From Pomacea canaliculata (Eukaryota > Mollusca > Gastropoda > Architaenioglossa > Ampullariidae): a stretch of 64,000 nucleotides of DNA. Where the stretch lies: the NCBI RefSeq assembly GCF_003073045.1, contig NC_037593.1, positions 13,586,735 through 13,650,734 on the forward strand, written 5' to 3'. Position 1 is the first letter of the stretch. Every line of letters begins with the position of its first letter. Positions 21,303-45,047 of the stretch are shown piece by piece. The notes under the pieces were generated by a model. The model was given only the letters and a program-made list of their open reading frames with translations, was not told the DNA's origin and searched no databases. A program made the translations under genes and the position numbers.

Positions 21303-24300
21303 ATGCAGTGGTCTGCTTCACTCCGTGTGTTTCTGCTGCTCCTTATGGTTGGCTGTGAGTCAATCTACTCAGGTCTGTGATACAAATAATTTCAAATGTT
21401 TAAAATATCAAAGCAACGATGTGCTTGGCTTCAGCTTGCAAAGCCTGAACATGAAAAGTTAAATAATGAGGCGGCGCTTATCGCTTTCATGTCTCACAAT
21501 GTATAGAGCTATCATGTCTTGTTCCAGCGGTATAGTCTAGTATGGCAGTATCAATTCATGCTGCCAGCAGTTCTAGGTACAGCCTTTCCATACAGTCACT
21601 AAATGAATGTGTGTGTGTGTGTGCATGCGAGCGATCATATGATATCTACCCTACAAAGGCGTGTGCTCGTTTGTGTAACTGTACGTAAAATGCTTTGCAA
21701 CTGGCTGGAGCTGGGTAAAGGCAATAATAATAATAATAATAATAATAATAATAATAATAATAATAATAATAATAATAATAATAATAATAATAATAATAAT
21801 AATAATAATAATAATAATAATAATAATATAATAATAATAATAATAATAATAATAAATAAATAAAAACTGCCGAAAAGCTGTTCTTAGCTGTCCAAATAAT
21901 GATGAACATTTTATCAAGTCTGCAAAAGTTTTGTTGAAAGCTATTTTAAGGGTTTCTAATGTCGCAGGGTATAGCTTGGGTCGCAGTTCCCAGAAGATCC
22001 GTGAAATTCGACTTTGTACTTGTTCTTTTTGCAGTATTCGTTATGCTGTGTAAATTGTATGTTTTTCTTCTTAGTTTGCAATCAGCATGCTGTTTGATAA
22101 AAATCTGGTTGTAGATTAGAATGTATCTTGTTGTAATTAGAATGTAGACTCACTCCGTGGCTCCTGACGTGTATTTCAGCTGGCAACATCAACTGCAAAA
22201 TTCCGCCATTCGACAGAAGAAGATGTTATCAAGTGTATACTAGTAATCCACATTTGAATTACAGCGACGCCTCTACGGCCTGTAGAGCTACACAGCAACG
22301 ACTGGCTTCCATGGAAACTGAACAACTGGTGATGTTCGTCAAAGCCAATATCCAGTAAGATGGACACTTTTGTCAGCACTAACATCGTGTAAACATTTCC
22401 GTGTTTATCACTCACTTTGCACGTGGCATGAAGAATTGCACGCACTGTAAAGCGACCACAAAACTCAAACCCAAGTTTATCCGGTATTTCTGACAACATT
22501 TGCAATGTTAACAGGTATATAGAGGACGGAGTCGTGTTAGACACTAGACATTACAAACTACTTAAGCTTATTGTCTTGCACCAATAAAAATAAAGACGAA
22601 AAAGAGAAAAAGTTTCTTTAAACTGTTTTATGTCTTGTATATGTGTATATGAAACAGTGGAAACGCTTGAAGAGTTTCAGGTAAAAAAAAAAAAAAGCCC
22701 GTGTCACGAATAATATTCTCGATATTTTAGAAGAAAAGAAGAAAAAGTTGTCCCCAAGCAACTAAAAAAAATTGTGGTGGGGTGGGGGGAGGAGGTGGGG
22801 AAGAACCTCGTCAAGAAAACATAAGACTTTAGTCATCGAAGACAACAAAGGCCACCTTCTCGAAGAAAGCACTGCTTTACTAGACCGATGGACTAAATAT
22901 TTCAAAGACCTGCACAACTTCCAGTTGAGAACGGAACCATTGTTTTACAAAGCAATCAGACTACAACCATATAATCTGCAGACCTGCCAGTAGCAGCGTC
23001 AGTGGCCAGGATGGAAATCTGGACATCTCCACCATGGAACACCAAACCAACGACAGTTGTGACTCTCGCTGGACACTAGGAGTTTCTCCACGCAAAACAC
23101 GAGCGGCACAAGCTGGTTGTTTGACCCTGTGACCCGGAAAGACACGCTCTCTAAGAAAGTTGTTCATGATGCCATGTAGGAGAGAGGAAGAGATAGCATG
23201 AAGGAGTGGGCAGGTCATCCCACGCAGAAGCAAATAGGGAGTCTTGTCAACCGTTGCGTCTGTCTAGTTGCTCTATCCACCAGCCCTCGACGACCAGGAC
23301 TGACGAGTCAACCAATAAAAAGATGAAAGAATAAAAGAGTAAATGAAACGTCTGTGGACTTCCAGCACACTTATTTACATATACGTATTTAAAATTTCCT
23401 ATATTTACAGCCTGCAACCCTCACAGTCTGTCACTAAGCACACCTCTTCGGATAGAATCTACCACTAAAGACATTTTCAAGCGGAAACCCTATTGAAAAT
23501 CTTCACGATTGTGTTTATATTTAATTCCTGTAGCATTCTTTTACTATTTCATTAGCGAATTTTTACACAGATTCCAGTTGATCTGGATCGGCCTCTCTCG
23601 GACAAGCGATGGACAACCGGACGTGTGGACGAGTGGGAAGCAGCTACAGGCTAGTCTCTACCCATCCGTGACCCTCAGTGTTAACAGAGGAAGCCAAGAT
23701 GTCGGGAAGCTGTGCTCACTAATCCTAAATGGCTCTACAGTCACATTCATCAACACATTGTGCAGCGGGACGGCGGACAGGCTGTGTGAAACTTTCAGAT
23801 GTAAATGATCTCAAATACTTTGTAATTCTACAGCAAGCTTCGAACTCATCCCTTTTCAACTCCTCTTTCTTATCTGTAGCTTCTCCTTATTCTCCACTTA
23901 TCTATCTCTTCATCTCCCTTCGTTATTGTTTCTCTCTACCTCTTATTACTTTTATGTTTATTTCTGAATTTTTTATTTCTTCTTTTGCTACCTTCTGTCT
24001 TTGTTTACCCGTTTTTCTCTCCTTGTATAACAAAATATTAAGCTTTGTTGCTCAATAATTACTCACATTCATAAGAGCATAATATTTAGAGCTTTACTTC
24101 TATATTTTGCTCATAAAAATGTTCGGGTTGTTATGTGGTCGAGGAGCGACAGTCACCATCATTCCACCTTAAAAAACAAGTGACAGAATGTATTGTGCTA
24201 GGAAAAATGATTGAAAGTATTCATTTTTTTTTAATCATCTAGTATAAATTGTTGGTTTGCTGACAAGTAAACATTGTATCAGCTACTCACGAAAACCAAA

Positions 24301-42862: not shown

Positions 42863-45047
42863 ATGCACCTTGTCAGCTTGTTGTCCCTGTGTGCTCTCTG
42901 TCTGGCACTTTGCTTACCGACAGATGCAGGTTTGTTGACAAACTGAGTTTGTAGAATAGGTTTTGTTGTCGTCTATTAGGATTCATTTGTTTTGAAATAT
43001 AGACTAAAGTAGTTATCCAAATACTTTTAAACAGTTTTATTTTCTACTAGAGATAAATATATGGCTGAATTACTTATCATATGATCCTATTTAGATATTA
43101 ATAATATCAATTGATAAACTTGGTAATTTCAGTCTACTTCGAAATGATTTTACAATCTTCATGAATAAATAGTAATGAGAAACATCATTTTAAAAAATAA
43201 GAAGAAATACGGTAAATTAACCCCGCTGCACCCGGTTCTCAGTGTATAGGACAGACCAACGCAGTGATGTGTGCAATAAATCTTTGTCAAATGAAGGACA
43301 ATGTTTCTATGTATAGTTGTTGTCACACTGTGCCTATTGTGACAACACAGAAAAAAAACATCCTGGTGTAGTTTGGAATTTTTATATTTCATTTGATGGC
43401 ATCGTCGGCGAATGATGAATGTAATAAAGACAAATAATTTTATTGTAAGAGTAATAATGAAACTTCAACAACAATAAGGCAAAGACCAGGAACCAAACAA
43501 AACCAATCAGATGTTTCTATCTAAAAGGATTTATTCAAAGAAGTCCATCAGCAGTTTTTTTTCAGCTTCTATTTTGTCTTTGTAACCATTGGGGAAAAAT
43601 ATTAAAATATTTTTTTTATTTTTTCTACAACCTTAATGGATGGTTTAAGTGGTCTAGGCAATGATACAATATTTTGAAATAGTCTATAGCTTTTTCTTCA
43701 ACCTTGATTGAGGGTCCAGTTAATCTATCCCACAATCACATACAGGTACGATACAGAATTTGTAGCCGCTAACTATTCAATACTAAATTCACTATTTCGG
43801 CACATGATCTTCAGTCAGTAAGGATTTCAAATGCCTGATCAGTCGTAAATATGTGATTTTAAGTTAGACTACCAAGGAGGGCAATGACCCTATATGACCC
43901 TATGACCGTTCCAAACAGGTACATCTGGCACCTGCAGGACTCCTCCATTCGACAAGAGAAGATGCTATCAACTCTACTGGGATCGCCAGCAGTCTTGGAG
44001 TTCATCCTCAAAGGCATGTCAGGCTACAGGACAACGGCTGCCATCGATAGAAAACGGAAGACTGCTTCAATTCATCAACGACAACATCCGGTGAGAGAAG
44101 GACAACGAGACGTGCTGTAGATATGGCTCACGTGACTATCTGTGGTCTGCACTGTTAGTGGATGGTGGTGATTCTCATCAATTGCACTGTTTTTTTTTCA
44201 AACAGGTATGCTCGCGTCTGGGTCGGTCTGCAAAGAGCAGCTGATGGTCAGCCGGACAAGTGGACCAACGGGGGGAACTTTGTCCCAAACTTGTATCCCG
44301 GCATTGTTCTCAACGTCAGCCGGGCAGGTCTCGACAACGGCAAACTGTGTTCTGTTGCTGACAGAAATGCCCAAAGCGCCCTCGCCAATGCAGTCTGCTC
44401 TGACTACTACGACAGGATCTGCGAAACTGTGAAAAGTAATCATTCAGTATTCTTCTTCTTTTATTTACTCTGGTTCTTCCGTTTTCTTTTCAACTGACTT
44501 ACATTACTTCTTTATTTCTCCTTTTTTTTACTTCTTCTTCCTTTCTTCTCTTCTTTTAATACCCCAGCAAGGTTTCCACTTTTATCAACAAGCCGTTGGA
44601 TAGCAGCGAGTCGAATTTTTTTGACGAGATATCTATCAGAGACTCTAAAGAGAATGTTTATCTACGTATGTATCATCACGGTATCTCTAAGTCTCCACGT
44701 TTGTGTTTAGTTATTGTTAGCTTGGAATTGATAACTTTTTTTGGTAGCTCAGAAAACTTTAATAATAAAATAAAACATTAATAAAAGAAAACTACGCACT
44801 ACAACCCTTTCTGTTGTTTACAGCGAGTGTTTATAAAGTCAGACCTTCTGGTCAGGTGGCTAAGGACGTCGGTCCCGGTCAGCCGAGGGCAGCTGAGTCT
44901 GTGTTGAGCTGCGTGCGCACATGTCGTCGCGAGTTGACCTGCGTGGCGATAAGTCACGATGGAGTCACGTGCCAGCTGCATTTCCCACAGGCTGGTCGCA
45001 ACCTCACCGTGACATCCATCCCCAAAATGTACTTCCTGCTCGAATAA
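42863..45047 (+). CDS. Secreted C-type-lectin-like / PAN-like protein E, 4 exons, 230 aa
   Basis: Exons: 42863-42929, 43919-44090, 44206-44435, 44824-45047, phases 1-2-1. Signal peptide with SLLSLCALCLALCL, then PTDA before the splice. CTLD: TCRTPPFDKRRCYQLY, SKACQATGQRLPSIE, VWVGLQRAADGQ, KWTNGG, VSRAGLDNGKLCS, AVCSDYYDRICETVK, six cysteines. C-terminal module: SCVRTCRRELTC, AISHDGVTCQLH, QAGRNLTVTS. Exon 3 is closest to gene C, although the two genes face opposite ways. An AATAAA at 45248-45253, about 200 nt past the stop, is a likely poly(A) signal. Confidence 0.88.

Follow-up and report, generated by a model that had tools for sequence, protein, structure and literature searches.

A compact cluster of five predicted CTLD-PAN genes in the apple snail Pomacea canaliculata

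Introduction

A stretch of 64,000 nucleotides from the genome of the apple snail Pomacea canaliculata (contig C4:13586735-13650734, hereafter the window) carries, within positions 21303-45047 (C4:13608037-13631781 on the contig), five similar genes whose predicted products join a C-type lectin-like domain (CTLD) to a PAN-type module. The locus raises the question of whether these genes form a family of their own and what proteins of this composition might do. The best explanation, to which we assign a probability of roughly 0.6, is a small, old, locally duplicated apple snail family of secreted two-domain proteins that would act in recognition or adhesion. This figure blends two parts: the assignment of the CTLD and PAN domains, which we hold with high confidence, and the recognition role, which is tentative.

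Five intact genes of one architecture

We identified five apparently intact four-exon genes, G1 to G5, four of them on the forward strand and G3 on the reverse (Table 1). In gene models rebuilt with splice sites, the intron phases are 1, 2 and 1 (cumulative) in all five genes and every modelled intron is GT-AG. Coding exon lengths are 64-70 nt for exon 1, 166-190 for exon 2, 218-233 for exon 3 and 224-239 for exon 4, and the joined proteins are 227-241 amino acids long with pairwise identities of 40.3-56.6%. The first-pass annotation of this stretch had proposed five intact genes sharing one architecture with phases 1-2-1, and this is borne out for each of them, down to the outer coordinates. 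Its labels of CTLD and PAN, its signal-like first exon, and the local expansion and divergence that it described likewise agree with the models, the Pfam matches and the identities.

Profiles of exons 2, 3 and 4 recovered the five family exons among the six-frame fragments of the window with E-values of 3.5e-33 to 7.9e-44, values that are partly by construction because the profiles were built from the exons found. Single-protein queries recovered exons 2-4 of the paralogues in the window at E 3.2e-6 to 5.3e-29. Judged at the level of sequence, the resemblance among the five genes is not due to chance.

All joins are predictions, and three appear to be the least certain. Of ten candidates for exon 1 of G3, we took the one that reads as hydrophobic and has the donor seen in G4 and G5; the exon-1 donor common to all five genes, CAG/GTYTGT, is off-consensus. 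Exon 2 of G2 has 15-24 nt more than the other copies and produces a nine-column insertion in the alignment. Finally, just upstream of the weak exon-3 donor of G3 lies a better-looking GTAAAA (by eye), which breaks the frame.

Domain identity

The Pfam family Lectin_C (PF00059) matches all five proteins at E<=6.2e-4, and four of them exceed the 22.6-bit cut-off (27.9-36.6 bits), with G1 slightly under it at 20.9 bits. A W(I/V)GL core motif and six invariant CTLD cysteine columns are present throughout. Six cysteines are the rule for long-form CTLDs. Outside exon 1 there are exactly ten cysteines in four of the proteins and eleven in G3, and ten would suit three CTLD and two PAN disulfides. When compared with the PDB, the joined five-protein profile matches 133 sequences at E<=0.01; the best 60 of these, which were listed, include CTLDs of LY75, PLA2R, mannose-receptor-type proteins and NK (natural killer)-type receptors, and the best match (1.3e-26) is to a whole chain with several CTLDs.

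The C-terminal exon matches PAN_3 (PF08277) in all five proteins at E<=0.012. Curated PAN cut-offs are exceeded by G2 and G5 with PAN_3 and by G3 with PAN_1 (PF00024). The Pfam check of the joined proteins, suggested with the first-pass annotation, thus supports the CTLD in four proteins and the PAN module in three, but G1 falls below the cut-off for both and G4 for PAN. Every protein begins with a hydrophobic exon and has no further hydrophobic stretch by eye. At E<=1, Pfam gave no immunoglobulin (Ig) family for any of the five, NCBIfam gave a single irrelevant match in one of them, and Rfam and tRNA scans gave no matches.

CTLDs without the usual sugar-binding motifs

The motifs EPN or QPD together with WND mark sugar binding at calcium site 2, according to the available text of PMC12842671, which also describes non-canonical bivalve CTLDs that are still able to bind sugars. 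A WND-type pattern is absent from all five family CTLDs. QPD occurs only in G1 and G5, where it lies in the loop that precedes WT(S/N)G, earlier than the canonical EPN/QPD position, and none of the five proteins combines EPN or QPD with WND at calcium site 2. Elsewhere in the genome, the eight listed loci that match Lectin_C best, and are for that reason biased towards the canonical type, all have EPN, and four have WND. Because WND is missing throughout and QPD is found only in the earlier loop, simple calcium-dependent sugar binding by the family CTLDs is unlikely.

A non-canonical calcium site would also fit a structural role, as in perlucin-like matrix proteins of shell, operculum or pedal mucus in which the PAN module would serve matrix assembly. 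CTLD proteins, including perlucin, are common in animal biomineral matrices (PMC4897951, in the text available). However, a word search of the main text of two papers on the limpet adhesive and shell secretomes gave no PAN domain, the single occurrence in each being an author name. This argument is thin; we consider a matrix role improbable.

One main cluster in the genome

The copy count rests on single-exon searches of the genome (440159624 bases in 24 contigs) with three queries, G3 exon 3, G4 exon 4 and G5 exon 4. These searches scored just 6, 9 and 10 candidates, and the counts are lower bounds. Exon 4 of G4 or G5 found only the five copies at E<0.001, and exon 3 of G3 only the five at E<=0.01. 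The remaining exon-4 matches are weak, one with E 0.003 and three with E 0.76-0.82. The first, at C2:24686033 (L029, 4034-4201), reaches 26.9 bits against the exon-4 profile and has lost two of the four cysteines. The others are at C6:16783856 (L026, 1258-1611, reverse strand; E 0.77, 24.5 bits), at C5:2759035 (E 0.82, 14.6 bits) and at C10:5411813, a match of G5 exon 4 (E 0.76) in an exon that passes PAN_1. In the weak frames on C2, C5 and C6 no Pfam family was found at E<=1, and exon profiles detected no family exon 2 or exon 3 within 8-10 kb around these places. With the database size set to mimic the genome, the C2 and C6 places have E-values of 0.003 and 0.018, and frames of the reversed window reach at most 7.2 bits with the exon-4 profile; for these reasons the two places may be old relics, and they were left out of the copy count.

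Domain-wide searches gave little access to this family. A genome search with PAN_3 returned two places, both on C1, and missed all five copies at E<=0.01 per single exon, while Lectin_C missed the family CTLD exons at E<=0.001; since both overlooked the five copies, these searches are insensitive to the family. At 1753000-1760000 of C1 (L028) several PAN-matching frames stand in a row, apparently as one multi-PAN gene, and family profiles found no family-type CTLD exon in these 7 kb. Lectin_C gave 143 matches among the 150 scored of 360 candidates, many of them in clusters. None of the family's exons is among the 143 matches listed in this exon-wise search, which fits diverged CTLDs.

A probable decayed sixth copy

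The first-pass annotation counted a cluster of five, which stands for the intact genes, but it overlooked an additional exon-2-like relic between G2 and G3 (Table 1). The relic is closest to G3, with 61.7% identity over 149 aligned bases, and retains one of the three cysteines conserved in exon 2. No piece of exon 3 or exon 4 was found near it by blastn with all 20 exons at E<=0.05. Exon 1 of G3 has a 21-base match nearby, at 31898-31918 (E 2.3e-4), and beyond the modelled exons and the relic the 20 exons otherwise gave three 15-base matches elsewhere. This piece is most likely a relic of the family's exon 2.

Divergence and history of the copies

By the Nei-Gojobori method, the CTLDs differ at 0.51-0.86 per synonymous site and 0.25-0.37 per nonsynonymous site, and the synonymous distance (dS) is saturated in four of the ten pairs. 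In the signal part (25-27 codons) the nonsynonymous distance (dN) exceeds dS in a single pair, G2-G4 (0.50 against 0.44), a region too short to weigh. The copies appear to be old duplicates under constraint. The architecture common to all five indicates that a CTLD-PAN gene predates the growth of the cluster.

Exon 4 stands out by its conserved synonymous sites: of 166 pairwise comparisons at fourfold sites 119 agree, whereas the tallies are 30 of 94 for exon 3 and 38 of 70 for exon 2; these counts are mutually non-independent. The conservation led us to consider whether exon 4 had been shuffled or converted between copies. We evaluated each of the 15 topologies on three partitions (exons 1-3, exons 2-3 and exon 4), each as DNA and as protein, and in every one of these six analyses the best tree joins G3 to G5. 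For the DNA of exons 1-3, the best tree without this pair has a p-value of 2.8e-6 in the approximately unbiased (AU) test. Trees without it are kept by exons 2-3 as protein (AU 0.154) and by exon 4 alone (AU about 0.14 for DNA, and at most 0.30 for protein among the trees listed). Conversion and shuffling found no support, as no partition conflicts with one tree, though exon 4 alone and exons 2-3 as protein discriminate weakly. Nothing conflicts with the exons having moved as a unit, as far as these partitions indicate.

Proposed function and alternatives

Each protein would be secreted and soluble, with a mass of about 25 kDa. Instead of simple sugars held through calcium, the CTLD may bind a protein or some unusual glycan, the PAN module may dock to a common partner or to another copy, and the copies would differ chiefly in the target of the CTLD. 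Most likely, the proteins would recognize or adhere at mucosal or body-fluid surfaces, in immunity or mucus; a use in egg or reproductive fluid comes next. A bolder version, in which the genes represent a lineage-restricted molluscan CTLD-PAN family, set apart from the main C-type lectin repertoire, with a variable CTLD lacking the sugar site and a constant PAN dock, is in our view unlikely.

Several results weigh against the proposal of a single family of secreted CTLD-PAN recognition proteins. Positive selection left no trace that we could see: in both the CTLD and the PAN module, every one of the ten pairs has a dN smaller than its dS. Column identity is 0.55 in exon 2, 0.41 in exon 3 and 0.52 in exon 4. 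The difference in conservation between exons 3 and 4 is marginal (one-sided permutation p 0.044) and exon 2 is conserved like exon 4, so that the picture of a variable CTLD and a constant PAN module is weak. The scores of the C2 and C6 places make the claim of a single cluster less than absolute. With regard to the PAN module, PDB matches to the exon-4 profile are limited to 2yil, a microneme antigen (E 0.012), and an unrelated CRISPR protein (E 0.3). The AlphaFold2 model of exon 4 from a five-row alignment is poor, with a mean predicted local distance difference test score (pLDDT) of 45.8; its order of elements, E-E-H-E-E-E, is compatible with PAN but untrustworthy at this score.

This poor fold prediction, together with PAN scores that lie near the cut-off and below it in two of the five proteins, would suit ordinary snail C-type lectins whose last exon is a lineage-specific tail and not a true PAN domain. 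However, the four cysteines stand in PAN register and three proteins pass curated cut-offs. In addition, the C10 gene that exon 4 of G5 weakly finds is itself recognized by PAN_1, and the family CTLD profiles give hardly any signal with a small set of other CTLDs of the snail (E 0.033-0.13). We regard such a tail as very doubtful.

The divergence of the copies had been read in the first-pass annotation as suggesting an immune, mucus or reproductive function. The divergence is real, but the functional step from it is weak given the excess of synonymous change in every pair. Under a reproductive use in particular, the genes would encode egg or reproductive-fluid proteins, components of the perivitelline fluid or the albumen gland that coat the embryo or protect it. 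Perivitellins are described as ecologically important reproductive proteins in the apple snail genus to which the host belongs (PMC3502340, in the text available), and copy number and secretion are compatible with such a role. In contrast, no feature of the sequence points to the albumen gland, and we judge this use unlikely. Recognition or adhesion by secreted CTLD-PAN proteins is the reading we prefer.

The gain for the gastropods is a compact single-cluster CTLD-PAN family, a pairing that, in the accessible text of the papers listed, is described only for nematodes. With these five genes one can ask, on a small scale, how lectin-type domains diversify when they lack the usual sugar site. 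A chromosome-level genome has been published for this invasive snail, so expression data could soon show where the family belongs. The find is a modest one and leaves the general picture unchanged.

Coordinates and surroundings

Table 1. Exons of the five CTLD-PAN genes and the exon-2-like relic (positions in the window)
Feature	Position	Strand	Description
G1 exon 1	21303..21372	+	ATG, signal-like peptide, end phase 1
G1 exon 2	22180..22354	+	CTLD first half, end phase 2
G1 exon 3	23571..23800	+	CTLD second half (WIGL to CET), end phase 1
G1 exon 4	24723..24955	+	Four-cysteine PAN-type module and stop; PAN_3 slightly under cut-off
G2 exon 1	28018..28087	+	Signal-like peptide; second in-frame ATG is codon 3
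G2 exon 2	28507..28696	+	CTLD first half, longer than in other copies
G2 exon 3	29316..29548	+	CTLD second half
G2 exon 4	30235..30467	+	PAN-type module and stop
Relic	32974..33138	-	Lone exon-2-like relic; exon-2 profile, 49.1 bits
G3 exon 1	36377..36443	-	Signal-like peptide; donor CAG/GTTTGT like G4, G5
G3 exon 2	35802..35967	-	CTLD first half
G3 exon 3	35353..35582	-	CTLD second half; weak donor GTCATT
G3 exon 4	34768..35006	-	PAN-type module and stop
G4 exon 1	38756..38819	+	Signal-like peptide
G4 exon 2	39101..39272	+	CTLD first half
G4 exon 3	39549..39766	+	CTLD second half
G4 exon 4	40542..40771	+	PAN-type module and stop; PAN_3 under cut-off
G5 exon 1	42863..42929	+	Signal-like peptide
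G5 exon 2	43919..44090	+	CTLD first half
G5 exon 3	44206..44435	+	CTLD second half
G5 exon 4	44824..45047	+	PAN-type module and stop

Three repeats lie within the cluster. Intron 1 of G1 holds an AAT microsatellite of about 45 units (21723-21855), intron 2 of G2 contains TGA and GGA-type repeats (28752-28871), and eight copies of a 23-bp unit with CACGTG are found between G2 and G3 (33847-34031).

Upstream of the cluster, forward-strand frames at 1497-9291 match the sperm-tail domains NYD-SP28_assoc (PF14775, above cut-off) and NYD-SP28 (below cut-off), and we take them to be a DRC1-like gene. On the reverse strand at 13873-15486, a 538-codon frame has the beginning of a T-box at its end (18.1 bits against a Pfam cut-off of 26). 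Downstream, at 50897-63756 on the forward strand, are exons of AMP-binding enzymes, with two of four frames above cut-off; these apparently come from two or more genes in tandem that share near-identical stretches. The neighbouring genes bear nothing on the function of the family.

Comparison with known systems

Other CTLD genes of P. canaliculata resemble the family in their CTLD exons and are often clustered, but the eight best carry EPN. In four of the loci (L002, L005, L006 and L008) the intron before the WxG segment appears by eye to be of phase 1, in contrast to phase 2 in the family. Whether these other genes have a PAN exon was assessed through the exon-4 and PAN_3 searches only. The genes at 5.40-5.42 Mb of C10 share with the family a four-cysteine PAN-type exon and the presence of at least two neighbouring genes, and PAN_1 is above cut-off in both of the PAN exons tested (L030, 8673-9035; L031, 5547-5921). 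However, in these genes the PAN-type exon stands beside the start codon as the apparent first coding exon and is followed by another cysteine-bearing exon. A sushi domain, suspected by eye in this second exon, was rejected as no Pfam family scored above cut-off. No relative of family exon 2 or exon 3 was found in 17 kb at this place, a test that other kinds of CTLD would escape.

Among gastropod proteins, CREPs are secreted proteins with Ig and C-type lectin domains that have been linked to immunity (PMC10875847, in the text available). These proteins (VIgL) carry one or two Ig domains, in contrast to the snail family, in which none of the five proteins has an Ig match. A survey of bivalves describes unique CTLD architectures with WSC, sushi, scavenger-receptor, apextrin and Ig domains, and PAN does not occur as a domain word in its main text as available (PMC10140915). 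Across the open-licence PMC papers listed, titles and the beginnings of abstracts name no molluscan CTLD-PAN family, and a gene-database entry for the snail genes may well exist.

The pairing itself is not new, since class IV of Caenorhabditis elegans combines one or two CTLDs with one or two CW (PAN_3) domains. This class comprises 16 genes, and none is given for the six other nematodes tabulated in the accessible part of PMC5297725. The first-pass annotation's view that the combination is not a described family thus fails for the composition, which already has a name in that source, and holds for molluscs in the papers listed. Like the snail genes, class IV is a multi-gene set built from the same two domain types, and the snail proteins share the composition of this class, though the correspondence is one of composition only. 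The C. elegans proteins are of nematode origin and vary in domain number. With the likeness judged by composition, independent assembly of the two domains in snail and nematode is as likely as common descent.

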